64,000 nucleotides of DNA from Vulcanimicrobiota bacterium (GTDB lineage: Bacteria; Vulcanimicrobiota; Vulcanimicrobiia; Vulcanimicrobiales; Vulcanimicrobiaceae): assembly GCA_003151115.1 (NCBI GenBank), contig PLWS01000001.1, forward strand, positions 177,438 through 241,437. The letters are read 5' to 3'. The position numbers were made by a program, and so were the translations under genes. How positions within the stretch are numbered: position 1 is the stretch's first letter; the number at the start of each line of letters is the position of its first letter. The notes under the pieces were generated by a model. It saw nothing but the letters and a program-made list of their open reading frames with translations. It was not told the origin of the DNA and ran no database searches. This document shows positions 1,846 to 37,378 of this stretch, piece by piece.

Positions 1846-4800
1846 ATGAATAACGAGCATCACATTAGAGACAAGTCAGGCTCGCCCAGGCGAGAAGTGG
1901 TGGCTTGGCTGAACAAGAATCGCGCACAAATCATAATGAACGCTGCGCGGCGTCCCAGAAGGAACAAGCCGCGATCATTTTTCGTGCTCTTAACTGCATT
2001 GGTTTTGCTAGTGAGCTTCGGCGTGTCCGTGCCCCGAATCCGCGCCGCAGAAATGATTCACTACGGCGCACTTCGCGTCACAGTCCTTGATGCGATTTCA
2101 CATGCGCCGATTTCGTTCGCTGTAGTGGATATTCACGGAAGTGTGGATCGAAGAGGCGTTACCGATCTCTCGGGAATCGTGCTATTCCGGAGCGTACCCC
2201 CAGGTCCGTATGCGATAACGCTGGAGGCTCGCCAACACCTTCCACTCACGCTTCGCAAGGTCATCATTGTGGCGAACACCGAACGGCGCTTGCGTTTTTC
2301 TTTACGCCCGCTCCCTGCTTCGTTTCAGCAGGGGTTGCAGCCGTCTCGCCCGCCGACGATTGCGAACGTTCGCACCGGCGCCGGCGTACCTCAGGCACAT
2401 ACCGATAAGATTTCGGACTCGGACATTACCACGCGGATATCCGACTCTCTCCGGACGTCACTCGGCATGGTGCCCGGCGTCGCGTTGCAGAGCGTAGGCG
2501 GAGACGCCGCCGCATCGATCGGAGGTCGATCAAGCGCACAGACTCAGACGTCGGTGGACGGCGTACCGCTGCTCGGTCCGGCACAAAGCATCGGCTTGTT
2601 TAGCAGCGGCATCTTTAGCAGCGCAAGCGTCGACGTTGGGACTAGCAGCCTTTCGTTCACGACGCCGGATCCAACGCTGGACTGGCTCGCGCGCCTTGCG
2701 CAAGCGGAGGGTAGTCATTCGTTTTCGCAGACGACGATTAGCGAGAGCGGTACCGCTGCGCGTCTAGGTCTAAGTCTGGTCTTTTCGAAGGTCGCTCAAG
2801 CGTCGGCCCTCGATGGCATGCGCTATCTTGATTCGAGCGGCCTCGACTACGTTCATGACGACACCACTAGCGGAGATGCGTTTGCCGCTAAGCTCCGATA
2901 CCCCACTTCCCGCAGTAACTCACTCTTGTTCTCTTATGACTCGCTGCATCAAGCCGTACCGCTCGTCTGCAACGTGTATACGGCGCAGGTTCCGTGCGGG
3001 TATGGTCCGGTCGATCGGAACTTTTTGGGCTTTAATGCCGCTCAAATCCGTGATTCGTGGAGCGGGTCGGCCGTCGACGGTTCCCTCTCGTTATTTTCGT
3101 CTGACAGTAACACGATTCAGGACGGAAGTGGACTTTTCTACGACGGCGTTAGCGCGCCACTGTCATCCTTCTCACGCTCTCTCTCGAACGGCCTCACGCT
3201 CGATAGCACGATTCATGCTGGGCCGAACTACAGCGTACGAGCCATGTGGCAGACGATCACTACCCACTCCGAATTTTTTTCCTCGCTCGGCTCGGCGAGC
3301 CCAGATACATCGTTTCAGTATCCCTCTGCCCATACGTCATTGTTCTTATTCACAGCTCCATTGATTCAGGCGCGCCGCGTGAGCTCATCATTAAGTGTGA
3401 CGGCGCGTTCCCAGCTCGGTTACCAGGCGAGCGGGTTGACGTTCAGCTTCGCCTACCGACCAACGAATCGCGATGCGATTTCTCTTCAGTATCGTACCGG
3501 GCTTCTGGGCAGACCGACAGCCTATCGGACTACAGTTTCTGACGCAAGATCAATGGCGTTCGATTGTGCGAACCACACTGCGCTTGGCGTTGGACCCTCG
3601 GTAGAGGGCGCGGACACGCAAACGACGCTAGCCGGAATTAGCTGGACGCATTCCGCGGCCAGAGTCACATGGGAGCTTTCTGCCACGCACGCTGTCGATC
3701 GCAACGCGCTCGTGGACGCCGTCGTCGCAGCTCCTGACTTGGACCCGAATCTGTTCGGCCCGTCGTTCGCCACAGAGCTGGCGATGGCGGGCGATCGTGC
3801 GTGCGGCTTTGGATCTAACTACACCCTCGACGATGCCTTGTTCAACATCACTGGGATCGCGCCGTACGCCGTCTACGATAGCGCGCAAGTGGCGGCTCAA
3901 ATCGCAATCGGACCTAACATAGTTACGACCTTGTCGGCCGGCATTTCATCAGCTCGCGCGTACGGTGCGAGCGAGCCAATTTTTTCAACGCGCTCGACTG
4001 TCATCCAGGGACGCCAACTTCCTGGCCGCCCCTATGCCACCGCTACATGGTCTTTCGCCTACGGGACCGGACATGGGCCACTCATCCTGCTTGACGCGCA
4101 CTACGTTTCCAAGAACAATCCGAATGCTCTCCCGGCCTATACTACTTTCGACGCGAGCGTGAGCGTACCGACTGATTACGGTCAGCTCAGCTTGAGCGTG
4201 CGCAATCTCACGAACACTCATCCCGGACCTTTTGCAACCTCAGCGGATGCGGTCCCGCTTTCCATGCTGATGGGTTCCTATCATCCGCCCGCGCAGCCAC
4301 TGGCGCCCCGCACGTTCGCGGTGACGTATCACGTCCAAGTTGGAAGAAATCCAAACTCCTTGGAAGCAACGAGTTTGCCCGGTGGCGGTCGATTTATCTC
4401 ATACGATTCGCTCGACTCGCGCGGTCCACTTGATATCGACCGACAGTCCTACTTGTGCGGACCCGAGCTTGTTCCCGAGACGCGCGCGTTGTTTGCCGCG
4501 GTTGGATCATACGTCCAGAGCATACAGGCGGCGACGGTTTCCAATAACCTTCCCGCTACATTCGCAGACGCAACGTTCCGGGGACTTCGACTGACTTACC
4601 GCCGCAGCGGCCAAGGCTTCGTCGTGCTGATTGCACGAGCACCGACATCTTCTTACGCGTCTATTCGTCCTTTGCAGCAAGACGTACTGAGCTGCGGAAC
4701 ATTTCGTACCGGGACGCTAGCTCAAGCACAGCGCGCAGGGCTCTACATCCCCTCATGGGACGAGCGCACTACGCAAAAGCTCCTGTTCGGCTTCTCTCCG

Positions 4801-5211
4801 CGCCTTGGATTCTACGGACTTCCTCCGCTCATCGAAGAGCCATCGATCCACTATCTGTCGCTGCCGGAGCAGCCCCCGACCGATCCTTTCGGCCTCAACG
4901 AAGATCCTGGTTGCACCGACGAGATCAGACCAGCGGCGGTTGCGTTCCTCGGAGCCCTGGAAAAGTTCGTCACGGCATACTTTAGCAGCGGTGTCGCTGA
5001 GCCTGAGGCTGGACTACAGATTCTGGCGCATAGTGATAGCGCAAAGAAATGGCTCGAGGTGAGGGATGATAATGGGTTCCTTGATCCGATCATGCCGTGC
5101 CTTGTCCTTCACAGCGGAAGCGCAGATGATTTCAGGAGACTCGGTTTCACGGTGCAATCGCTGGGTTCCATTAACTATGCGCCCGAATTGGGACTCTATG
5201 TATTTAAGTAG
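1846..5211 (+). CDS. TonB-receptor-like outer-membrane barrel with C-terminal extension
   Basis: 1121 residues. The signal peptide hydrophobic core lies at about residues 45-62, so the ATG at 1936 (residue 31) may be the true start. A carboxypeptidase-regulatory-like beta-sandwich follows (about 72-155, GALRVTVLDAISHAPI). Next is a plug-like segment (about 195-245) with GGRSSAQTQTSVDGVPLLG, typical of TonB-dependent receptor plugs, and then a barrel rich in Ser, Thr and aromatic residues. The last barrel-like strand, TFAVTYHVQVG, ends near residue 840. About 280 further residues follow with four spaced cysteines, whereas known receptors usually end at that strand. No TonB box is evident to me. 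The role would be uptake or binding of a ligand at the outer membrane; the ligand is unknown. The gene has no operon partner. Confidence 0.75.
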   Translation: MNNEHHIRDKSGSPRREVVAWLNKNRAQIIMNAARRPRRNKPRSFFVLLTALVLLVSFGVSVPRIRAAEMIHYGALRVTVLDAISHAPISFAVVDIHGSVDRRGVTDLSGIVLFRSVPPGPYAITLEARQHLPLTLRKVIIVANTERRLRFSLRPLPASFQQGLQPSRPPTIANVRTGAGVPQAHTDKISDSDITTRISDSLRTSLGMVPGVALQSVGGDAAASIGGRSSAQTQTSVDGVPLLGPAQSIGLFSSGIFSSASVDVGTSSLSFTTPDPTLDWLARLAQAEGSHSFSQTTISESGTAARLGLSLVFSKVAQASALDGMRYLDSSGLDYVHDDTTSGDAFAAKLRYPTSRSNSLLFSYDSLHQAVPLVCNVYTAQVPCGYGPVDRNFLGFNAAQIRDSWSGSAVDGSLSLFSSDSNTIQDGSGLFYDGVSAPLSSFSRSLSNGLTLDSTIHAGPNYSVRAMWQTITTHSEFFSSLGSASPDTSFQYPSAHTSLFLFTAPLIQARRVSSSLSVTARSQLGYQASGLTFSFAYRPTNRDAISLQYRTGLLGRPTAYRTTVSDARSMAFDCANHTALGVGPSVEGADTQTTLAGISWTHSAARVTWELSATHAVDRNALVDAVVAAPDLDPNLFGPSFATELAMAGDRACGFGSNYTLDDALFNITGIAPYAVYDSAQVAAQIAIGPNIVTTLSAGISSARAYGASEPIFSTRSTVIQGRQLPGRPYATATWSFAYGTGHGPLILLDAHYVSKNNPNALPAYTTFDASVSVPTDYGQLSLSVRNLTNTHPGPFATSADAVPLSMLMGSYHPPAQPLAPRTFAVTYHVQVGRNPNSLEATSLPGGGRFISYDSLDSRGPLDIDRQSYLCGPELVPETRALFAAVGSYVQSIQAATVSNNLPATFADATFRGLRLTYRRSGQGFVVLIARAPTSSYASIRPLQQDVLSCGTFRTGTLAQAQRAGLYIPSWDERTTQKLLFGFSPRLGFYGLPPLIEEPSIHYLSLPEQPPTDPFGLNEDPGCTDEIRPAAVAFLGALEKFVTAYFSSGVAEPEAGLQILAHSDSAKKWLEVRDDNGFLDPIMPCLVLHSGSADDFRRLGFTVQSLGSINYAPELGLYVFK

Positions 5212-5447
5212 GACGACGATAACAGGAAGTAGGGACCTCGGTAGTCCCAAAGAGTTAATAACCACACCGCGTCGCGCCTTCGCGTGGAAGCGAATGTTGA
5301 ACCTAAGGGGAAGCCAAGGAACGACCAGAAGCAGTTGGCAATCGATCACGATCCGATTTTTCCTGAAACGAAATAATCTGCAATGGAATTTACGTAAAAC
5401 GGCTGGCTAAAAATAAATAAACTGGGTTCAGCCGATTTATTACCGCC

Positions 5448-5753
5448 ATGATAACGCTCTGCATTCGATATACTCTCGACCATAACAAACTTTCGGATTT
5501 CGAAGCATACGCCAAGGCATGGCCGGAAACGATCGAACGATGCGGCGGCAAGCTGGTCGGATACTATCTGCCGACCAGAATCGCCGGCCCGACAAATTTT
5601 GCGTTGGCGCTGATCGACTTTGAGGACCTCGCGGCATACGAGCAGTACCGGGACAAGTTAAGCCAAGATGCCGACGCCCTCGTAAACGTTGCGCGGATAG
5701 AGCGTTCGGGCTGCATTCTCAGCGAAGACCGTTCGATTTTGCAACGCGCGTAG
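5448..5753 (+). CDS. NIPSNAP family protein
   Basis: 101 residues, the usual size for a single NIPSNAP ferredoxin-like alpha/beta-barrel domain. It begins MITLCIRYTLDHNKLSDFEA and contains the family-like YYLPTRIAGPTNFALALIDFEDL stretch split across a strand and helix, followed by AAYEQYRDKL. The biochemical role of bacterial members is not settled. The stop codon is followed two bases later by the GTG of the acetyltransferase gene, so the two are probably co-transcribed. The 236 bp before it (5212-5447) are AT-rich and show no gene. Confidence 0.82.
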   Translation: MITLCIRYTLDHNKLSDFEAYAKAWPETIERCGGKLVGYYLPTRIAGPTNFALALIDFEDLAAYEQYRDKLSQDADALVNVARIERSGCILSEDRSILQRA

Positions 5754-5755
5754 TC

Positions 5756-6268
5756 GTGACGGTGCGCCAAGCCCTTCCCGAGGATGCGGAGGCTATTGCG
5801 GCCGTGCAAGTGCGCACGTGGCACGCCGCGTACGCGGGACTTCTTCCGCAAGAACACCTCGACCGGCGCACGGTCGCGCTGCGTACCGCGCAGTGGAACG
5901 ATCGGTTGGGAGCCGGCGATGAGGACGTTTTCGTCGCTTGCGATGCGCATGGAAAAGTCTGCGCGTTCGCATCCGGCGGCGCGTCGAGCGAACCGGTCGA
6001 CGGTTTCGACGCCGAAATCGGCACGCTTTATGTGCTGCCGGAAGCGCAAGGCCAGGGAGTTGGGGAACGGCTGCTGCGCGCCGTGGGTGCGGCGCTGCGA
6101 GCCAAAGGTCTTAAGGCTGCGTGGCTGCGAGTTTTGTCGGATAATGCTCCGGCGCGGCGTTTCTATGAAAAGTTAGGCGCGCAAGTCATCTGCGAAACCA
6201 CCGAAGAGATCGACGGTTTTCCCTACCGCGAACACTTCTACGGCTGGCGAGATCTCTCTAAGCTTTAG
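5756..6268 (+). CDS. GNAT family N-acetyltransferase
   Basis: 170 residues starting at GTG (VTVRQALPEDAEAIAAVQ). The GNAT fold is recognisable: N-terminal strand/helix, then the central strand IGTLYVLPEAQGQGVGERLL, where Q-x-x-G-x-G is the acetyl-CoA pyrophosphate loop, then LRVLSDNAPARRFYEKLG as motif B. It transfers an acetyl group from acetyl-CoA to an amine, but the acceptor cannot be read from sequence. It sits 2 bp after the NIPSNAP gene, and the pair forms a small plus-strand unit. Confidence 0.88.
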   Translation: MTVRQALPEDAEAIAAVQVRTWHAAYAGLLPQEHLDRRTVALRTAQWNDRLGAGDEDVFVACDAHGKVCAFASGGASSEPVDGFDAEIGTLYVLPEAQGQGVGERLLRAVGAALRAKGLKAAWLRVLSDNAPARRFYEKLGAQVICETTEEIDGFPYREHFYGWRDLSKL

Positions 6269-6461
6269 GACCCCAGCCCGAGAAAACGCCCGAAGGTGTC
6301 GGAATTGTCGTAACGCGTTCGCTCAAGATCGTCGGGCTCGGAGTGTTATTCTCCGGCAACGCAAGCTGGCTCAGCGGCTCATGCCGCTCATTCACATTAT
6401 TTTTCATCATCAATATCCTACCGCATGTTTATACGGCGCGATATGACATTTGTTTCGGCGC

Positions 6462-8738
6462 TTACGTTCCCGCGTCGCTTCCGAACCGGAATAGGTATTT
6501 GATGATGAACCGGTCGAGCGTGCTGGGCGCCGCCGGCGTGCCGAAGTTTAAGAACAGTTCATCGCCGCTGCGGAAGCGGTGGTGATAGGCGGCCGCCAGA
6601 TTGACACCGGGGGGCGAGAAACCGCCGCGGCCGTTGATCGAGCGCAGCGAAATCGTGAAGTTTTCGTACGGGCCGAGTTGTGCGCCGAGCGAAATACGGC
6701 GCAGCCACTGCGAATCGAATGCTCCCGTCGTCATGGCGCGCTCGAAGCTGCCGTCGTACTCAAATCCGAGTGAAAAAACGCGTCCAAGCGGCCGCGACGT
6801 CGTGAACGAATAGATATGCAGATAGTCCGGTCCGTTGTCGTTGGGGCCCACAAAACCGAACCCGAATTTTCCATAGGCCATCTGGAAGTCGATCGGCGTG
6901 GGGGTTCCGTCGCGATAGCCTACCGACACTGTTGAGAGATTAAATGTGTCGGTTCGCCCGCAGAAATAGCCCGGATATCCCGTAAAGTACGAGCGGGGAA
7001 GATTCGGATCGTTGCAATTTGTTGAAAACGCGGCAGGGTCGACGACCGAATAACTGCGCAACTCGCTCGTCGATGGTCCGACGCCGATTGAGAAGCCGTT
7101 ATTCAGCGTCGCGTTCAAAAAGAGGCCCGCATCGGACTGATGTACCGCGCCCGATCGATCGAAAAAGCGATCGGCGTTCACGAACAGGATAAAGTTCTTG
7201 ACACCTTTGGTCGAACCGCCGGTATCGCCGAAGAAATTAAAGCCGTGGATGTCCGAGTTCGCGGTGATGCCATCAATGGGATTGTAGTTGGGAGTGATGT
7301 CGGTGTAGGTCAGGTTCCACTCGTAGTTGGGCTTGTGTACGTCGATGAAGCCGTTCAGGCTATGCGCAACGCCTTGCGGGACCCACGAACCGTGCTCGCT
7401 CGCGTCGTTAATGCCGTAGACGAAACCGTTCTTGAGGTTGCGGCCTTTGACGCCGGCCTCGATCGCGGTGTCGCTGCCGAAGATGCTGTGGTGCGCCATC
7501 ACCCCGTCGGCCCACCACAAGAACGTGCGATCTTGCAGCGTGTGCGTGTAGCCGAACGCGGTGTCGTCGAACGTGTTGCCCGTGGTTTGGTCGAAGCCGC
7601 GGAAATTCAGTACGCCGAACGCCTGGCGGCCGAACGTTCCTTCCACTTTCTCACCGCGGTCGAACGGGCCGACCGACGGCGAGTAAAACAGTTCATTTCC
7701 TCCGACCGGGGACTGATTGGGATTGAGGAAGGCGGCGCCTTGGGAGAAAAACGGCCGGTACTCTTGCAAAAAGCGGCGGAACTCTTGCGGTGCGATGGTC
7801 TGCTGATCGATCTCGACGTTTGAAAAGTCCGGATTGACCGTGCCGACAAAGTTGATCGTGCTGGTCAGCGGATAGCTCAGATCGAGACCGGCAACGCGCA
7901 CGGTCTCCGGCAAAAACTGCCCGTTGGCTTGCTGGAAGAGTTTGCGGTCGCGGCCGCCGCTCTCGAGCGTGTAGAGTTCGGCGCGGGGCTTCGGCCGCGC
8001 CGCCGCCGTCGCTCCGGTCGTAATCCCCGTCCACGACGGCCAGAAGCGCGCGTCGGTAAAAAGCGGGAACGCGTTGCCGATGGCGCCGTCCTGCATGACT
8101 CCGTCGTAAGCCCAGGTGTAGTGCTCGGCCGGAGCCGCGACGTTGCGAATGAAATTGATGCGCCACGTTTGGTTCGCGCCGCCGTGAATGCGCAGCACGT
8201 CGAGCGGAATGACCATGACGGCGCTCCAGGAGTCGCCGGTTATCGCCGCGGCCGACTGCCACACCGGACGGTAGCGCGCGTTTTCGCTGGCCTGTTCGTA
8301 CCGCACTCCGCGCGGCGTGGTTTCGAAGAAGTAGACGTTGGAGCCCGAGCCGCTCGTGTCGAGCTCGACGCCGACGAAGTCGTCGATGCCGAAGCCGACG
8401 TCGTTGGTCGTCTGCGTCGCCGTGATCGGCGTGCCGCGCTGCTCGGCGCGAAATGCGACGTAGAGGTTGCGCGCGTCGTACATCATCCACACCTGCGTGG
8501 CGTGCGGCGCGATCGTGCGCGTGGTCAAATCCTCGAATCCGCCGGATTCCGGAATGGCGCCGGCCTGCCAAGCAGCGGCCGGAATTGACGGATCGAGCGG
8601 CGGCGGCGCCGGGGCCGCGGCTGCAGGCAGCTGCAAAGTCGCCACGACCGACGCTTGCGCAGGCGAGCCTGAGACGAGAATGGCCGCCAGCATAGCGCAG
8701 GCCGCGAGGCATGATAAAGACTTCAGAGGATACTCCAT
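6462..8738 (-). CDS. DUF5916 protein with N-terminal CBM9-like domain
   Basis: 758 residues. Residues 1-29 are a signal peptide ending in PAQA. Residues of about 45-230 look like the carbohydrate-binding family 9 fold common in DUF5916 proteins (VWMMYDARNLYVAFRAEQ, FGIDDFVGVELDT, WSAVMVIPLDVL). The rest is an outer-membrane beta-barrel of the DUF5916 type, rich in alternating aromatic residues and ending FIIKYLFRFGSDAGT. No enzymatic function is established for the family, and a role in binding or passing glycans at the outer membrane is inference. The gene is alone, transcribed away from the YtrA-type operon across an intergenic region that holds a hairpin repeat. Confidence 0.82.
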   Translation of the reverse strand: MEYPLKSLSCLAACAMLAAILVSGSPAQASVVATLQLPAAAAPAPPPLDPSIPAAAWQAGAIPESGGFEDLTTRTIAPHATQVWMMYDARNLYVAFRAEQRGTPITATQTTNDVGFGIDDFVGVELDTSGSGSNVYFFETTPRGVRYEQASENARYRPVWQSAAAITGDSWSAVMVIPLDVLRIHGGANQTWRINFIRNVAAPAEHYTWAYDGVMQDGAIGNAFPLFTDARFWPSWTGITTGATAAARPKPRAELYTLESGGRDRKLFQQANGQFLPETVRVAGLDLSYPLTSTINFVGTVNPDFSNVEIDQQTIAPQEFRRFLQEYRPFFSQGAAFLNPNQSPVGGNELFYSPSVGPFDRGEKVEGTFGRQAFGVLNFRGFDQTTGNTFDDTAFGYTHTLQDRTFLWWADGVMAHHSIFGSDTAIEAGVKGRNLKNGFVYGINDASEHGSWVPQGVAHSLNGFIDVHKPNYEWNLTYTDITPNYNPIDGITANSDIHGFNFFGDTGGSTKGVKNFILFVNADRFFDRSGAVHQSDAGLFLNATLNNGFSIGVGPSTSELRSYSVVDPAAFSTNCNDPNLPRSYFTGYPGYFCGRTDTFNLSTVSVGYRDGTPTPIDFQMAYGKFGFGFVGPNDNGPDYLHIYSFTTSRPLGRVFSLGFEYDGSFERAMTTGAFDSQWLRRISLGAQLGPYENFTISLRSINGRGGFSPPGVNLAAAYHHRFRSGDELFLNFGTPAAPSTLDRFIIKYLFRFGSDAGT

Positions 8739-8842
8739 ATTTCAACTACTAAATTAATCGTCAAACCGTTTCGGCGCCGCTGCCTCGGCAGACGCCCGGT
8801 TCCGCAAATTCTTCAAGATGCCCGCCTTGACTCCGAGTCTGT

Positions 8843-8939
8843 CCTAGTGCGGATCGGGCGCATTCTCAGGACTCGGCGCTTCGCGCCTCTGCTGATGAGT
8901 CAGACGACCTGCGCCGAAACGCGCCCGCTCCGCACTAGG
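8843..8939. repeat. Hairpin repeat element, copy A
   Basis: A 97-nt imperfect palindrome. The left arm, 8843-8861, begins CCTAGTGCGG; the right arm, 8921-8939, ends CCGCACTAGG. They pair at 18 of 19 positions. Inside are a mini-hairpin GGCGC-TTC-GCGCC and a 22-nt segment at 8898-8919, containing gacgacctgcgccgaaa, that recurs exactly at 61465-61486 in a second palindromic element. It lies between divergent transcription units, so it is not simply a terminator. It could be a REP- or MITE-like element or a structured RNA. Confidence 0.6.
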
Positions 8940-8974
8940 GCAGGCTGCCCATCCGAAAAAATTCTGTTGGGGGG

Positions 8975-9002
8975 TTGACGGGAGCGATTCTTATGCTATT
9001 AT
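8975..9002 (+). promoter_or_regulatory. Sigma70-type promoter of the YtrA-ABC operon
   Basis: TTGACG at 8975-8980 and TATTAT at 8997-9002 are spaced by 16 bp, close to the consensus TTGACA/TATAAT. The -10 box abuts a perfect palindrome, so repressor binding would block polymerase. It reads into the 35-codon frame at 9052. Confidence 0.75.
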
Positions 9003-9020
9003 ACTAGTGTACTAGTATAA
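8999..9020. promoter_or_regulatory. Palindromic operator, probably for the GntR/YtrA repressor
   Basis: The 10-bp arms TTATACTAGT and ACTAGTATAA form a perfect inverted repeat around a 2-bp GT centre. The site overlaps the -10 region and probable transcription start. YtrA-type GntR regulators usually bind such symmetric AT-rich sites at their own promoters. The cognate repressor is encoded about 150 bp downstream, so autoregulation is the simplest reading. Confidence 0.78.
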
Positions 9021-9051
9021 CAGCGTATTGGTACTGCTAGGAGAAAAGACA

Positions 9052-9159
9052 ATGACGTTCCCCCTCAACTTCCAAGAAGCGACCGAGCGTCGCAGCCCCA
9101 GCTTCCCGCTTTCGAACCAAGGCGGCAACCTGTTCCTGGGCTGGGGTCCGAGACTCTAA
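9052..9159 (+). CDS. 35-aa peptide heading the YtrA-ABC operon
   Basis: A short open frame from ATG 9052 to TAA 9157-9159, preceded by a strong AGGAGA at about 8 nt. The peptide begins MTFPLNFQEATERRSP and ends GGNLFLGWGPRL. It is the first frame after the operator-controlled promoter and ends 9 bp before the repressor gene. It has no signal peptide. It could be a leader peptide, an effector sensed by the repressor, or cargo of the ABC exporter. I do not recognise a family. The good ribosome-binding site and promoter position argue that it is translated. Confidence 0.6.
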   Translation: MTFPLNFQEATERRSPSFPLSNQGGNLFLGWGPRL

Positions 9160-9168
9160 GAGGCTAGG

Positions 9169-9564
9169 ATGCCGGCAGTATTCACGGTCGACCCGCGCAG
9201 CGGCGTTCCGATCTACCTGCAACTGATCGAGCAGGTCAAGCGCTCAGTGGCCCTCGGCGTCCTCGCCCCCGGCGAGCAACTGCCGACGGTCAAGCAACTG
9301 GCCGTCGATCTCACGGTTAATCCGAACACCGTAGCGCGGGCATACCGCGACCTCGAACGCGATGCGGTGATCGAGACGGCCCCCGGGCGCGGCTCGTTCG
9401 TCCGCGCCGACGGCGTCGCCAATCAGGCCGGCGCCGCGGCCGACGTTGCAGCCGAAGCCGTCACGCGCGCCGTCCGCGAAGCAAAGTCGCTGGGCCTGAG
9501 TTCTGCAGCCGTGCGAAAACTTTTCGATTCCGCGCTGACGCGCTGGTTTCCGGAGGAAAAATGA
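9169..9564 (+). CDS. GntR-family repressor, YtrA subfamily
   Basis: 131 residues. The winged helix spans about residues 8-75 (GVPIYLQLIEQVKRSVALGVL, then QLPTVKQLAVDLTVNPNTVARAYRDLE, the GntR signature with its recognition helix). A short helical tail of about 50 residues follows rather than a large ligand domain, which defines the YtrA type. Such proteins usually repress an adjacent ABC transporter operon and respond to envelope stress or antimicrobial compounds. The gene ends in an ATGA overlap with the ABC ATPase start. The palindrome at 8999-9020 is its probable operator. Confidence 0.9.
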   Translation: MPAVFTVDPRSGVPIYLQLIEQVKRSVALGVLAPGEQLPTVKQLAVDLTVNPNTVARAYRDLERDAVIETAPGRGSFVRADGVANQAGAAADVAAEAVTRAVREAKSLGLSSAAVRKLFDSALTRWFPEEK

Positions 9565-32174: not shown

Positions 32175-32738
32175 ATGCAATCAGTAGAGGGAAAACGTAT
32201 CGCCGCGCTCGTGGGCGACGGCTTCGAGGAATCTGAACTTACCGAACCCCGCCGCGCTCTGGAAGAGGCCGGCGCAATCGTGACGATCGTCGGCATCGAC
32301 GAGAAGTCGCGCCAGAAGATCCGCGGCAAGCGCGGACTGGACGAGGGTCAAACCGCCAAGGCCGAAGAGCTCGTGGCCGATGTCACGGCCGAAGACTTTG
32401 ATGCCCTGCTCATTCCGGGCGGCACTTCGCCGGATCACATCCGGACGAACAAAGACGTGCAGCGCCTGGTGCGCGAGTTCGACGCGGTCAAGAAACCGAT
32501 GTTCGTGATCTGCCATGGGCCGCAGGTGCTGATCTCCGCGCAAATCGTGCGCGGCCGTCAGCTGACCGGCGTGCCCGCAATCGCCGACGACATTCGCAAC
32601 GCGGGCGGGTTATATCGCGATCAGCCGGTTGTGCAAGATGGCAACTGGGTCACGTCGCGCACTCCCGACGATCTGCCGCAATTTAATCGCGCGATCGTCG
32701 AGAAGCTCGCGATGGCGATTCCGACGCCGGTTGTGTAG
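32175..32738 (+). CDS. DJ-1/PfpI family protein
   Basis: 187 residues. The family core is present: ALVGDGFEESELTEPRRALEEAGA, then LLIPGGTSPDHIR, and the nucleophile elbow in VICHGPQVL, whose Cys is the conserved reactive residue. PfpI-like members are described as proteases, glyoxalases or deglycases, and the activity here cannot be assigned. It lies 33 bp after the preceding gene on the same strand. Confidence 0.92.
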   Translation: MQSVEGKRIAALVGDGFEESELTEPRRALEEAGAIVTIVGIDEKSRQKIRGKRGLDEGQTAKAEELVADVTAEDFDALLIPGGTSPDHIRTNKDVQRLVREFDAVKKPMFVICHGPQVLISAQIVRGRQLTGVPAIADDIRNAGGLYRDQPVVQDGNWVTSRTPDDLPQFNRAIVEKLAMAIPTPVV

Positions 32739-32804: not shown

Positions 32805-33284
32805 TCATGGTCTCTTATCGATCATTTGCCATTGATCGATTGCCAGCTGCTCACATTGCGCAAAGCCTATAGCGTCTTGTAAATCGATTAGATCTAGACA
32901 GGGGAGTAAATTCGCAATCGGGACGTCCTGCTGCGACTTATGAGATTTGTAATAGCTAGTGATCTCGGCTGCATAATGAGCGGCTGGTTTCGATAAAAGA
33001 AATGCCTTGGGCGGTGAACTGCTCCTAAGCTTGCGAAGAATTGCATCACGGCTCCGGGAATCAATCTCGGGCGATGCCAGTAACGCGTAAAAATAGCTCC
33101 CCATAACACCGCCGCCCAGGGAGTAGCCGGTTCTCAATGCATCAATAGCGCCCTGAACGGCAGCAACCTGGTCAACGGGGCGCGCGGCCAACCACCAGTA
33201 ACCATCTGTGGTCGCAAACGTCCTGCTGGAGGCGGAGTTAACTAACAACACGATCAGAGTCAATCCCAAGCTAATTGTTCGCAC
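32805..33284 (-). CDS. Orphan exported protein
   Basis: 159 residues from GTG 33284, with AAAGG about 8 nt before it. A signal peptide occupies residues 1-24 (SLGLTLIVLLVNSASSRTFA). The mature part contains YYKSHKSQQDVPIANLLPCLDLIDL and no motif I recognise. Base composition and codon use are noticeably more AT-rich than in its neighbours, which suggests recent acquisition or relaxed constraint. It is probably real because of the signal peptide and length, but it stands alone. Confidence 0.5.
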   Translation of the reverse strand: MRTISLGLTLIVLLVNSASSRTFATTDGYWWLAARPVDQVAAVQGAIDALRTGYSLGGGVMGSYFYALLASPEIDSRSRDAILRKLRSSSPPKAFLLSKPAAHYAAEITSYYKSHKSQQDVPIANLLPCLDLIDLQDAIGFAQCEQLAIDQWQMIDKRP

Positions 33285-33353: not shown

Positions 33354-33953
33354 TCAAGACGCCGCGGGGTCCCAGCGTGCGAGTGCTTCGCCGTATTGAC
33401 GTAATCCAATAAAGCCAGCGATCCCGCAGAAGAGAAATGCGGCGGGCAACTGCGGATACTCCAGCAGCACGATCGTCGCCGCGACAACGCCCGCTAGCAG
33501 AATGTAAACCGCCTGCCAGACGCCGGTGCGGACGGTCGCGCCGAGCGCGACAACGGACACCGCACATGCACAGGTCATAGATAGGATGACCGGGGCGGCA
33601 GCCAGGTCGCGTGATCCGGACGATATTCCGGTGACGATCCAGTACCCGGCCAGCGCGATCACAACGCCCAGGCTGGGAACCAACGCGATGGCGCGTGCAA
33701 CTTCGCGCGCATACAGCGGGGCGGATTGTTCGCAAAGCTCGAGCTCGCGCATGCGGCCGCCGCGTTGCGCGACCGCCAGATATATTCCGGCGAGCGAGCC
33801 GAAGAGCGCCGCGCCGAGCGCGTGCGCGCCGAGGTCCGAGTGCATTTGCAACGCTGCAAACAAGGCCGCCGCGGCCGTTACGTATAGCACTTGCGCGCCG
33901 AGCCGCCGCAGGCGCGTGAGCGCTATTTCAGAGGTTACGGATCGAAAGTTCAT
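33354..33953 (-). CDS. Membrane protein partnered with a degenerate ABC ATPase
   Basis: 199 residues from ATG 33953 in an ATGA overlap with the upstream ATPase-like gene; a longer upstream reading is rejected. Six hydrophobic segments are visible (for example AQVLYVTAAAALFAALQM, VILSMTCACAVSVVALGATV, GVVAATIVLLEYPQLPAAFLFCGIAGFIG). It looks like the membrane half of a small ABC-type or CcmB-like system. No family is recognised with confidence. Coupling to the ATPase-like protein implies a complex. Confidence 0.65.
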   Translation of the reverse strand: MNFRSVTSEIALTRLRRLGAQVLYVTAAAALFAALQMHSDLGAHALGAALFGSLAGIYLAVAQRGGRMRELELCEQSAPLYAREVARAIALVPSLGVVIALAGYWIVTGISSGSRDLAAAPVILSMTCACAVSVVALGATVRTGVWQAVYILLAGVVAATIVLLEYPQLPAAFLFCGIAGFIGLRQYGEALARWDPAAS

Positions 33954-34510
33954 ACGCGTACGGCGCACGCGTCCGAAAAACGGGCGGCGTCGTTTTCCGA
34001 ACCATGCGTTGAAAAGATCGCGCAAGTCTTGGCAACATCAACGATCTGCGGACCGTAGACGGCTTGCGGGCGATCCAGGACGAGCAAACGCGGCTGTGCG
34101 ATGAGCGCGCCTGCCAGCGGGTACGCGAACGATTCGTGGATGCCGTCGAGTCCGGAAAGGATGTAGCGCGCACGTACGACGCTTTCGGCCTGCGGCAGCT
34201 GCCAGAGCGCCGCGCGGTATTCGATGTACTGCTCGAAGGTCGGGAATTCGTACGGCAGTGCGTCGTGCGGAACGTAGCCGGCCAGCCGTTTCACATGGAC
34301 CGGCTGAATGCGCGGATCGAATGCGCCGACGTAAACGGCGCCGTCGGAGGCGCGAACCAAGCCCGCCGCCATCATCGCGACGATTGCCGCCGCGCGGTTT
34401 CCGGCGCACGGATGCGCAAGACGACCGCCGTCATCGAGTTCGACGTTTTGCGGGGCTACGAGTTCCTCGCCACGGCGATGGAAACTCGCGCCGCGCATTT
34501 CGAGCAGCAT
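33950..34510 (-). CDS. Degenerate ABC ATPase-like protein
   Basis: 186 residues from ATG 34510, two bases after the phosphoribosyltransferase stop. The ABC fold can be followed: N-terminal sheet, then a P-loop position reading PCAGNRAAAIVAMMAAGLV instead of GxxGxGKS/T, so the Lys and Ser/Thr are gone. A Q-loop-like GYVPHDALPYEFP, signature position YPLAGALIAQP, Walker B LLVLDRP with Arg in place of the catalytic Glu, and the H-switch STHG follow. It probably cannot hydrolyse ATP. The downstream gene encodes a membrane protein coupled by ATGA. Role unknown; it may be a structural or regulatory subunit. Confidence 0.7.
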   Translation of the reverse strand: MLLEMRGASFHRRGEELVAPQNVELDDGGRLAHPCAGNRAAAIVAMMAAGLVRASDGAVYVGAFDPRIQPVHVKRLAGYVPHDALPYEFPTFEQYIEYRAALWQLPQAESVVRARYILSGLDGIHESFAYPLAGALIAQPRLLVLDRPQAVYGPQIVDVAKTCAIFSTHGSENDAARFSDACAVRV

Positions 34511-34511
34511 G

Positions 34512-35618
34512 TTACTCGACGAGTTGCAGGCGCGGGTTCGGTCGTTCGGGGCGGCCAACTTTATGGCACTCGCGCCACTCGCTGCCGTTTTCGAGCGCGA
34601 CGACGTCGGCGGTGTATTCGGTTCGTCCGCTGCCCGCGCCCAAGAAGAATGCGCCTCCGACCGCGTACGCATCTACCGGAACCTTATCGTGTTCGAATTC
34701 GCGAATGCGCTGCGCGGTGAAACCGCCGCTGACGACGATGCGCACGTGTTTAAAACCTTCGGCGTCGAGCGCGCGGCGCACGTTGAAAACAAGTTGCGGT
34801 ATCACGCCGGTCGGCTTGAACGTGCCCATCATATTCCAGATCGATTTATCGACCAGCGTTTGCGACGTATCCAATCGCACGCCCCACAACCGATCGCCGA
34901 GCGCGCGCGCAACGGCAAGACTCGTTCCGACGCAATCGTTGTCAAAGTCTACCAGCGAGATCAGGTTGACTTTGCGATCGATGTACTCGGCAAATTTTTG
35001 CGTCGCGAGCACGGTGTTGCCGCCGTATGCGGCAATAAGCGCATGCGGTACGGTTCCCATTCCGCCGGCGCCCCACCACTCCGCATTGGCGTCGGTGGAA
35101 ACGCCGAGCGCCCCGGAGATATACGCCGCATAACCATCGCCCGTTTGCACCAAATGGTGATCGAATCGCGCCGGGAAAAACAAGACTTGCTTGCCGTTGG
35201 CGGCGGTCACGATTTCGCGCGCATTGGTCGCAATACGTGTTCGACGCGAGAGCACGCCGAGATAGCACGTTTCCAGGTGAGCGAAGAGTTCGTAGTCACC
35301 CTCGATCATGAGCGCGGTTTCGTATGGTGCGATACGGTCGCCGTCATAGAGCGCGTGGACGCGCAGCTTTTTCCATCCGTCTTCCCACTCACCCGAGGGA
35401 AGACGACGCCCCGAGCACAGCCGCAGAATCGCTATGGCCTCGTCGATGCCGCACAAGACCGCATCGCTGCGCTGAAAAACCTGCATGCGGACCGTCGGAT
35501 GGTAGTTGTCGCGCTCGAGAATCTGCCGGGCGCGGTTGAAGTACGTGTCGGAATAATAGCCGTCGCGCATCTTCTCGACGGGCAAATTAAAGATTTCCGG
35601 CGGCAGCCTGGTAGGCAC
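34512..35618 (-). CDS. Nicotinate phosphoribosyltransferase
   Basis: 368 residues from GTG 35618. Features of the nicotinate phosphoribosyltransferase family are KMRDGYYSDTYFNRAR near the N-terminus, FFPARFDHHLVQTGDGYAAY, GTVPHALIAAYGG with the conserved His, and the phosphate-binding loop region VSGGFTAQRIREFE plus YAVGGAFF. It joins nicotinate to PRPP in NAD salvage. It shares a 29-bp divergent gap with polX that contains a perfect inverted repeat (35612-35629). Two coupled genes for a membrane system follow it. Confidence 0.88.
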   Translation of the reverse strand: MPTRLPPEIFNLPVEKMRDGYYSDTYFNRARQILERDNYHPTVRMQVFQRSDAVLCGIDEAIAILRLCSGRRLPSGEWEDGWKKLRVHALYDGDRIAPYETALMIEGDYELFAHLETCYLGVLSRRTRIATNAREIVTAANGKQVLFFPARFDHHLVQTGDGYAAYISGALGVSTDANAEWWGAGGMGTVPHALIAAYGGNTVLATQKFAEYIDRKVNLISLVDFDNDCVGTSLAVARALGDRLWGVRLDTSQTLVDKSIWNMMGTFKPTGVIPQLVFNVRRALDAEGFKHVRIVVSGGFTAQRIREFEHDKVPVDAYAVGGAFFLGAGSGRTEYTADVVALENGSEWRECHKVGRPERPNPRLQLVE

Positions 35619-35647: not shown

Positions 35648-37378
35648 GTGCCCTCGAATACAGAGATCGCCGAGACCCTGCTGCGCATCCGGAAGCTCAT
35701 GGAGCTGGCCGGCGAGACTTTTTACAAGTTCACCGCCTACGAGCGGGCCGCGGCGACCCTCGAAAACGCACCGCCCGTTACCGACCTGCTGGCCGCGGGT
35801 GAACTCACTACGCTGCCGGGCATCGGCAAGTCGCTGGCCGCGACGATCGAAGAGATCGTGCGCACGGGCACCTGCGCCCAACTCGAAGTGCTTCAGCAGC
35901 GCTATCCGCCGACGATCTTCGAAGTGCTTGGGGTCTCCGGCATCGGCATCAAAACCGCCGCGATGCTTTTTGAACAGTACGGCATCGGTTCGCTTGCAGA
36001 CTTGGAGCGCGCGATCGATTCGGGAGTGCTGGCCGAAGCGCCCCGCATGGGTCCCAAGACGATCGAAAACATCCGGCGCGGAATTCTCGCGTATCGCGGA
36101 CGGCTGCGGCGCACGCCGCTCCCGCGCGCGCTCGCTATCGCCCATGAAGCCGTGACATATCTCGAATCGGGTCCGCCGGTTCACCGGATCGGATTTGCGG
36201 GCAGTTTGCGCCGCGCGGAAGTGACGGTCGGCGACATCGACATCGTCTGCACGTCGGATACCGCGGCGGCGGTAATCGATCATTTCGTTCGCTGGAACCG
36301 CGCGCGCGCCGTTCTTTCCGAAGGGCCGACCAAAGGCAGCATTTGGCTCGAAGACGGTTTGCAGATCGATCTGCGCGTCTTGCCCGATAATCTTTACGGC
36401 AATCTGCTGCAGCACTTCACCGGTAGCCGGGAGCACAACATCCAAGTGCGCGAGCACGCCGTGCGCAAGAATCTGCGCGTCAGCGAAAACGGCATTTTGA
36501 ATCTCGAGAATGGCGAGGTCTTTACGAGCCGCGACGAGCAAGGCGTCTACACGGCGCTCGGCATGCAATACATTCCGCCCGAATTACGCAGCGGCATCGG
36601 CGAAGTCGACCTCGCGCTGCGCAACGAACTTCCGGAACTGCTCGAAGCCTCGGACGTTCGCGGAGACTTCCACATGCACACCACATGGAGCGATGGGCGG
36701 CAGACGCTCGAAGAGATGATCGCCGCCGTGGCCGCCCGTGGATACGAGTATCACGCGATCACCGATCACTCGCCCGCGCGCGGTGTGATCGGGTGCAGCG
36801 CGGACGAGCTGCGCACGCAGCGCGAAGCGATTCGCGAACTCGGCGACAAGTACGGTGTGCGGACCCTGTGGGGAAGCGAGGTTGACATTCTCCCCGACGG
36901 CTCGATGGATTTCCCGGACGACGTGCTGCAGAGCATGGACGTTGTGATCGCGAGCGTGCACTCGTCATTCCGGCAAACGCGCGAGGAGATGACGCAGCGC
37001 CTGATTCGCGTCTGTGAAAATCCCTACGTCACCATCATCGGCCACCCGACCGGGCGAAAGGTCGATGGGTTCGAGGGTTACGAGTACGATTACGATGCGG
37101 TCTTCGCGGCCGCTGCACGTACAGGTACCGCGCTCGAAATAGACGGCCAACCCAAGCGCTTCGACCTGCCGGCGAATCTCGCGCGCCGCGCAAAGAGTCT
37201 GGGTGTAACGCTGACCGTCGACAGCGACGCGCATGACGCGGGACAACTCGGTAATATCGACTTAGCTATCGTTCAGGCCAGAAGGGCGGGGCTAACGCGC
37301 GATGACGTCCTAAACGCGCGGCCGCTCGAAGGCGTACTCGAGTTTGTACGCTCGAAACGCGAACGCCTTAAGCGATAA
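35648..37378 (+). CDS. polX: DNA polymerase/3'-5' exonuclease PolX
   Basis: 576 residues from GTG 35648. The N-terminal helix-hairpin-helix repeats (LTTLPGIGKSLAATIEE, VLGVSGIGIKTAAMLF) are followed by the family X palm (GFAGSLRRAEVTVGDIDIV, with the metal-binding Asp pair in DID) and a third Asp region near LQIDLRVL. The C-terminal PHP domain begins DFHMHTTWSDG, with further ligands in ITDHSPA, WGSEVDIL, GHPTG and DSDAHD. It fills short gaps in base-excision-type repair and removes 3' nucleotides. Length and order are standard. It overlaps fdhD convergently by 11 bp. Confidence 0.96.
   Translation: MPSNTEIAETLLRIRKLMELAGETFYKFTAYERAAATLENAPPVTDLLAAGELTTLPGIGKSLAATIEEIVRTGTCAQLEVLQQRYPPTIFEVLGVSGIGIKTAAMLFEQYGIGSLADLERAIDSGVLAEAPRMGPKTIENIRRGILAYRGRLRRTPLPRALAIAHEAVTYLESGPPVHRIGFAGSLRRAEVTVGDIDIVCTSDTAAAVIDHFVRWNRARAVLSEGPTKGSIWLEDGLQIDLRVLPDNLYGNLLQHFTGSREHNIQVREHAVRKNLRVSENGILNLENGEVFTSRDEQGVYTALGMQYIPPELRSGIGEVDLALRNELPELLEASDVRGDFHMHTTWSDGRQTLEEMIAAVAARGYEYHAITDHSPARGVIGCSADELRTQREAIRELGDKYGVRTLWGSEVDILPDGSMDFPDDVLQSMDVVIASVHSSFRQTREEMTQRLIRVCENPYVTIIGHPTGRKVDGFEGYEYDYDAVFAAAARTGTALEIDGQPKRFDLPANLARRAKSLGVTLTVDSDAHDAGQLGNIDLAIVQARRAGLTRDDVLNARPLEGVLEFVRSKRERLKR

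Follow-up and report, generated by a model that had tools for sequence, protein, structure and literature searches.

A conserved gene pair coding for a pseudo-ABC ATPase and a predicted type V membrane protein in a family of Vulcanimicrobiota: a candidate ATP-independent membrane complex

What can an ABC protein do for its membrane partner when its ATP site has been lost? ABC transporters are defined by ATP, and in the ABC dimer each ATP site combines Walker A and B motifs from one half with a signature from the partner half. Examples of a single dead site are known. The window analysed here, a stretch of 64,000 nucleotides from the genome of a Vulcanimicrobiota bacterium, raises this question through two open frames of its minus strand, one coding for an ABC-like protein of 186 aa (33950–34510 including the stop; coding part 33953–34510, stop codon 33950–33952) and the other for a membrane protein of 199 aa (33354–33953, stop included). 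As the original prediction stated, both genes are joined by an ATGA, in which the start of the membrane gene lies on the stop of the ABC-like gene (33950–33953, minus strand), and this 4-base overlap is found in 49 of the 57 loci carrying both genes. The same prediction saw in the pair a degenerate ABC ATPase joined to a membrane protein and proposed for it a role as an ATP-independent gate or scaffold, and both ideas agree with our results on motif loss, on the co-occurrence of the genes (55/55) and on their conserved predicted docking faces. Taken as a whole, that interpretation is partly supported. We propose that the two proteins probably form an obligate membrane complex whose ancestor was a type V (ABC-2) exporter and which has ceased to use ATP.

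The former Walker A of the ABC-like protein reads PCAGNRAAA (34385–34411, minus strand) and, as predicted, has lost its Gly-Lys-Ser/Thr; the position of the missing lysine, set by ungapped alignment to the protein of a sister family and to ABC ATPases of the PDB, is occupied by Ala41. GK[ST] is present in none of the 53 readable copies from the window's family (hereafter f1), whereas G-x4-GK[ST] is found in all 40 of the ordinary ABC ATPases from the same genomes that served as controls. At the lysine position there is Ala in 52 copies and Gly in one, and Lys-to-Ala in Walker A is the very substitution by which biochemists inactivate ABC pumps. The former Walker B, LLVLDRP (34067–34087, minus strand), had also been read correctly, with Asp146 kept and Arg147 in the place of the catalytic Glu. 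Its acid is conserved in all 53 copies (Asp in 45, Glu in 8), while the next position holds Arg (43), Gln (4), Leu (2), Cys (2) or other residues (2) and never the Glu that follows in the Walker B of every control (40/40). For the signature the prediction was right about the change from LSGGQ, but 'altered' understates the case, as the motif is missing altogether and its region is shorter. One of the 53 copies contains an LSGG-like string, whereas the controls show a strict LSGGQ-type pattern in 28 of 40 and variants close to it, for instance YSGGM or LPGGY, in the other 12. The H-switch STHG (34001–34012, minus strand), correctly quoted in the prediction, has its His in 38 of the 53 copies. 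These counts omit a copy cut by a contig end (L101, genome G079), one with an ambiguous base and a broken frame (L032, G009) and the second copy of genome G005 (L021). With profiles, the window's protein had no Pfam match up to an E value of 1, and NCBIfam gave a faint ABC similarity (GldA 2.7e-5, DrrA 4.1e-5); among the 15 members of set A1, three are matched by ABC_tran of Pfam up to an E value of 0.1.

A protein that has neither Walker A and B nor signature cannot form a canonical ATP site, whether by itself or beside an intact partner, and it is on this ground that we read the complex as ATP-independent. A different view would be that a functional pump is made of the pair, as its degenerate half, and of an intact ABC-2 half-transporter encoded elsewhere. 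In the parts of the earlier literature available to us, there are descriptions of ABC transporters in which one of the two sites is dead, and heterodimeric exporters with one degenerate site appear as well known, and the window's own genome does contain intact ABC ATPases. Nevertheless, since Walker A and B and the signature are all missing (GK[ST] in 0/53, LSGG-like strings in 1/53), neither site of such a heterodimer would be complete, and no intact nucleotide-binding domain (NBD) gene was recognised beside the pair in f1; we judge this arrangement distinctly unlikely. The heterodimeric exporters TM287/288, BmrCD and MsRv1273c/72c resemble the pair in the natural loss of catalytic residues from an ABC domain. 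In them one of the two composite sites still works, and Walker A is as a rule present. In the pair described here, unlike in those exporters, it is the only ABC domain that is without Walker A, catalytic Glu and signature. The proposal that the ABC-like protein is a regulatory subunit for another ATPase also becomes less likely, since a protein devoid of these three elements has nothing to contribute to either side of a composite ATP site.

Has the protein kept its fold in spite of these changes? As the original prediction anticipated, the AlphaFold2 model of the single chain is an ABC ATPase fold (pLDDT 93.2, pTM 0.90); it aligns with ABC ATPases along its entire length, all 998 aligned PDB chains reaching Z >= 8, the best being 4yer (Z 18.9, 2.7 A, 180 residues). 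The membrane protein, also modelled as a single chain, is predicted to have six helices (pLDDT 86.8, pTM 0.83) in a type V arrangement. Among the matches listed, its closest relative in fold is NosY (7o0y, Z 16.5, 2.9 A over 187 residues), with CcmB (8ce1) at Z 14.7 and ABCG proteins at Z 12–14.5, and all 50 of the listed VIA matches are ABC transporter chains (NosY, CcmB, ABCG and related proteins, Z 12.4–16.5). The best Foldseek match had an E value of 0.063, with none below 0.001, and no relevant match to the membrane protein was obtained from a profile search of the PDB, from Pfam and NCBIfam with 27 members, or from these two collections with the membrane partners of the sister family. 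The weak Pfam and NCBIfam matches of the membrane proteins (E values of 0.005–1; SecDF at 2e-4 for the sister-family locus L027) were rejected as an effect of hydrophobic-helix composition. It is thus the comparison of structures that points to a type V (ABC-2) membrane domain in the predicted model.

Known type V systems offer the nearest parallels. NosDFY is a type V ABC complex that serves the maturation of nitrous oxide reductase, CcmABCD acts in heme and cytochrome c maturation, and in both NosFY and CcmAB the NBD and the membrane domain are separate genes. NosY resembles our membrane protein in fold and CcmB is close to it in both size and fold. NosF, in contrast, is a working ATPase, with entries in the AMPPNP- and ATP-bound states, and relative to either system the pair differs in having lost the ATP-site motifs. 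No gene for NosD, NosZ or NosL was recognised at the pair locus. An origin from CcmAB was considered and rejected: PF03379 matches neither the membrane protein nor anything in the window's genome, and in 6 of the 99 family genomes it gives a weak match elsewhere. PF12679 also had no match in the window's own genome.

How widespread is the pair? A scan of 84,980 species, with one genome per species, yielded 30 loci, of which 27 are strong (L041–L067) and three weak ones were taken for ordinary ABC ATPases. All strong loci come from metagenome-assembled genomes, mostly of Candidatus Eremiobacterota (the NCBI phylum Vulcanimicrobiota), with a few labelled 'bacterium' or Eremiobacteria. Within f1, the profile of the ABC-like protein has a strong match in 55 of the 99 genomes, distributed over 27 genera, where strong matches are separated from ordinary ABC ATPases by a gap between 2.9e-27 (1.8e-17 for the contig-end fragment of G079) and 1.4e-12. 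The profile of the membrane protein, searched in 149 genomes of the phylum, matches 56, namely the same 55 f1 genomes and one of f2, another family of the order. No genome among the 99 carries one gene of the pair alone, and no f1-type degenerate pair was found in the other families. The pair is missing from 44 of the 99, some of which are incomplete. Genome G005 has two copies of the whole locus (L021 and L022, in contigs of 212,117 and 210,757 bases) with ABC proteins 87–89% like that of the window, which may mean that two strains share one bin or that the locus is truly duplicated.

Both genes are under purifying selection. Median dN/dS values (NG86) in the window's genus are 0.112 for the ABC-like gene (15 pairs) and 0.086 for the membrane gene (12 pairs), compared with 0.047 for the neighbouring nicotinate phosphoribosyltransferase gene (15 pairs); in genus g47 they are 0.262 and 0.290, and in f2 0.156 and 0.167. 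Only pairs with dS > 0.02 and < 1.8 were used, and the values are rough, because dS is often near 1 and the pairs share ancestry. The frames of the ABC-like gene are open in all loci except the two that are cut or gapped by the assembly (L032 and L101). These data bear on the idea that the pair is a decaying remnant of a once active transporter. According to the original prediction, a relative with intact Walker motifs at the same locus would mark this copy as a decaying pseudogene; such a relative, with Walker A and B intact, does exist in the sister family, and several losses of the pair have occurred, as the idea would have it, but the consequence does not follow. The degenerate form, for which the prediction had proposed a search in intact and conserved pairs, is conserved over 27 genera, which means that the ABC-like protein is no decaying pseudogene; open frames throughout these genera, dN/dS medians of 0.09–0.29 and invariant residues in both proteins argue in the same sense, and the losses resemble clean deletions that leave no remnants. 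Decay is scarcely credible for the pair, and for the family as a whole it is refuted.

The place of the pair in the chromosome is also conserved. The gene order across genera is a PolX-type DNA polymerase/PHP gene (35648–37378 in the window, plus strand; present at 50 of 54 pair loci), the nicotinate phosphoribosyltransferase gene where there is one, the ABC-like gene, the membrane gene and, tail to tail with it, a DJ-1/PfpI-like gene (32175–32738, plus strand; 51 of 54); the names of the two flanking genes are those that we presume from their sequences. For this comparison of synteny, loci L001, L003 and L004 were swapped for longer stretches. In the window a further frame of 159 residues with a signal-peptide-like start (32805–33284, minus strand) lies just downstream of the membrane gene in the same orientation. 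Its G+C content is 51%, against 62% for the window, it has no clear relative among the fetched loci, and it is perhaps a recent insertion.

The original prediction also implied a link with the nicotinate phosphoribosyltransferase (34512–35618, minus strand), which does precede the pair directly, at a distance of one base (34511) after its stop codon (34512–34514) and not of two as had been said. A conserved link was rejected, as the gene was found in the fetched stretch at 23 of the 54 pair loci, some stretches ending at contig ends, and is retained beside DJ-1 where the pair is absent; we therefore consider it a neighbour and not a partner. It was not found at the other 31 loci (L074, L076 and L083 among them, some cut by contig ends), which include all 16 loci of genus g47. 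In seven f1 genomes without the pair (L122–L126, L128, L130), PolX, nicotinate phosphoribosyltransferase and DJ-1 are consecutive and leave no room for it, two other such loci have an extra spacer (L127, L129), and L121 has neither the pair nor the phosphoribosyltransferase. The spacer of L127 (G120) consists of about 5.7 kb of extra DNA between the phosphoribosyltransferase and DJ-1 (approximately 3712–9387), in what is otherwise an empty site. At three more pair-less loci (L131, L132, L139) the arrangement of PolX, phosphoribosyltransferase and DJ-1 does not exist, and in f3, another family of the class, 3 of the 5 loci have PolX directly beside the phosphoribosyltransferase and no pair. Since several lineages do without the pair and have a clean empty site, it is dispensable.

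When, then, was the ATP site lost? Three genomes of f2, the sister family, carry a related pair (L026, L027, L028), and a fourth, G040, has an f2-type membrane gene by DJ-1 near a contig end (L138). The f2 pair is a positional orthologue of that of f1, with equal gene order and overlap, a related membrane partner and an ABC protein that also has no signature. In contrast to f1, this protein keeps GSGKS and DEP and has Arg instead of the H-switch His, and the pair, although in the same interval, lies behind an inserted amino-acid-type ABC operon. This operon of binding protein, permease and ATPase occupies 2083–4889 of L026, between the nicotinate phosphoribosyltransferase and the pair, and is also present in L027 and L028; in all three loci a large regulator-like gene comes after the pair. 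In a tree of 53 f1, 3 f2 and 40 ordinary ABC proteins, f1 is a single clade (100/100) and a branch with 98/94 support sets the 40 ordinary proteins apart from f1 and f2. As the ordinary proteins are all on one side of this branch, f1 and f2 belong together if the root is among the ordinary ABCs. The PolX tree is less tidy, placing two f2 rows beside one f1 genus with modest support, so that f2 is not cleanly sister there; the presence of the pair on it (68 rows, including 10 of the 44 pair-less f1 genomes) involves 5 changes, in line with, for example, one gain and four losses. From these sequences, the simplest order of events would be that the signature was lost before f1 and f2 split and that Walker A and the catalytic Glu were lost in f1. 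In a broader account, for which we see the balance as even, a bacterial order disarmed a whole type V ABC transporter stepwise, first in its signature and then, in the ancestor of the family, through Lys-to-Ala and Glu-to-Arg changes, with its docking faces preserved, and so arrived at an ATP-free membrane machine.

If the two proteins work together, where would they meet? In the ABC-like protein, whose mean entropy is 1.82 bits, the best-conserved stretch comprises residues 57–82 (GAVYVGAFDPRIQPVHVKRLAGYVPH; 34265–34342, minus strand), before and into the Q-loop. Entropy is low in the pre-Q-loop segment (57–80, 1.09 bits), in the next helix (92–104, 1.36) and in Walker B (0.95), and high in the former P-loop (2.38), the Q-loop tip (2.34), the D-loop (2.20) and the C-terminus (2.71); Gly57, Gln69 and Lys74 are invariant in 53/53 copies. 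In the membrane protein the cytosolic coupling segment (residues 61–92, including APLYAREVARA; 33678–33773, minus strand) has 1.44 bits, and the C-terminal cytosolic tail (residues 182–196, the IGLRQYGEALARWDP region; 33366–33410, minus strand) is the lowest segment with 0.64 bits, against 2.5–2.9 bits for the periplasmic loops. Pro79, Arg83, Ala86 and Arg87 are invariant in the 51 rows of this table, which omits L021, L079, L082 and the f2 rows. The limits and sidedness of all these segments follow our reading of the predicted models. Because the coupling helix of the membrane domain fits into a groove around the Q-loop in the ABC transporters that are known, we regard the conserved segments as two predicted docking faces, residues 57–82 being the presumed face for the membrane domain, and a contact between the conserved faces of the two proteins is plausible. 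Co-evolution measured by tree distances in 46 loci adds no support to it, since the correlation of the pair after removing two neighbours (0.455) is equalled by that between those neighbours (0.461), which have no expected contact.

The almost unchanged coupling segment would also suit a scheme in which an intact NBD encoded elsewhere powers the membrane protein while the pseudo-ATPase competes for the docking site as a regulator or antagonist. We consider this scheme rather improbable, as the two genes are never apart (55/55) and mostly overlap by 4 bases, and no candidate NBD was recognised beside the pair in f1.

Within the ATP-independent reading, the chief rival gives the conserved Asp, Arg and His a part in binding a ligand. 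The old site may still take one, because the H-switch His and the Walker B Asp/Glu are often kept, and the former ATP site could bind a metabolite, a metal, or a nucleotide held without the P-loop Lys, the pair being then a ligand-gated channel or a sensor. This acidic-basic-His set (Asp/Glu in 53/53, Arg147 in 43/53, His in 38/53), together with the 0.95 bits of Walker B, speaks for such a role, but the loop that should wrap the ligand is among the most variable parts of the protein (2.38 bits) and the conservation of Walker B may be due only to core packing. We hold this possibility to be unlikely, if less so than the schemes that call on a second ABC protein.

Our preferred reading is still that of an obligate complex working without ATP, and we propose for it the following model. 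The loss of the ATP site is a fixed state of the family, while its two genes remain whole, always together and subject to purifying selection; according to the predicted models, neither the ABC fold nor the type V fold of six helices has been given up. Two copies of each protein may assemble as occurs in NosFY or CcmAB. The pseudo-ATPase would then lie on the cytosolic face, with its conserved pre-Q-loop groove against the coupling segment and the C-terminal tail of the membrane protein, and could act there as a lid or platform, either fixed or operated by a partner. If no ATP is used, there can be no uphill pumping, and hence the complex may be a passive gate (or a facilitator for lipids or solutes) or a scaffold for another membrane machine. 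The loss of ATP-binding and ATP-splitting residues from the motor part of a pair that has been kept suggests a machine turned to ATP-free working.

A limited check of the literature, in the parts of it that we could consult, gave no report of this pair, nor of an ABC-2 pair whose sole ABC domain is fully degenerate. Since the sister family has a half-disarmed version at this locus, the sequence in which the motifs went can be put to the test. The lineage of the pair is one of soil bacteria, in which it is kept over many genera. If our proposal is true, tens of genera would conserve an ABC-type complex whose only ABC domain is a pseudo-ATPase, and a type V membrane fold with an ABC cap would be useful without ATP, and kept as such at the depth of a bacterial family.
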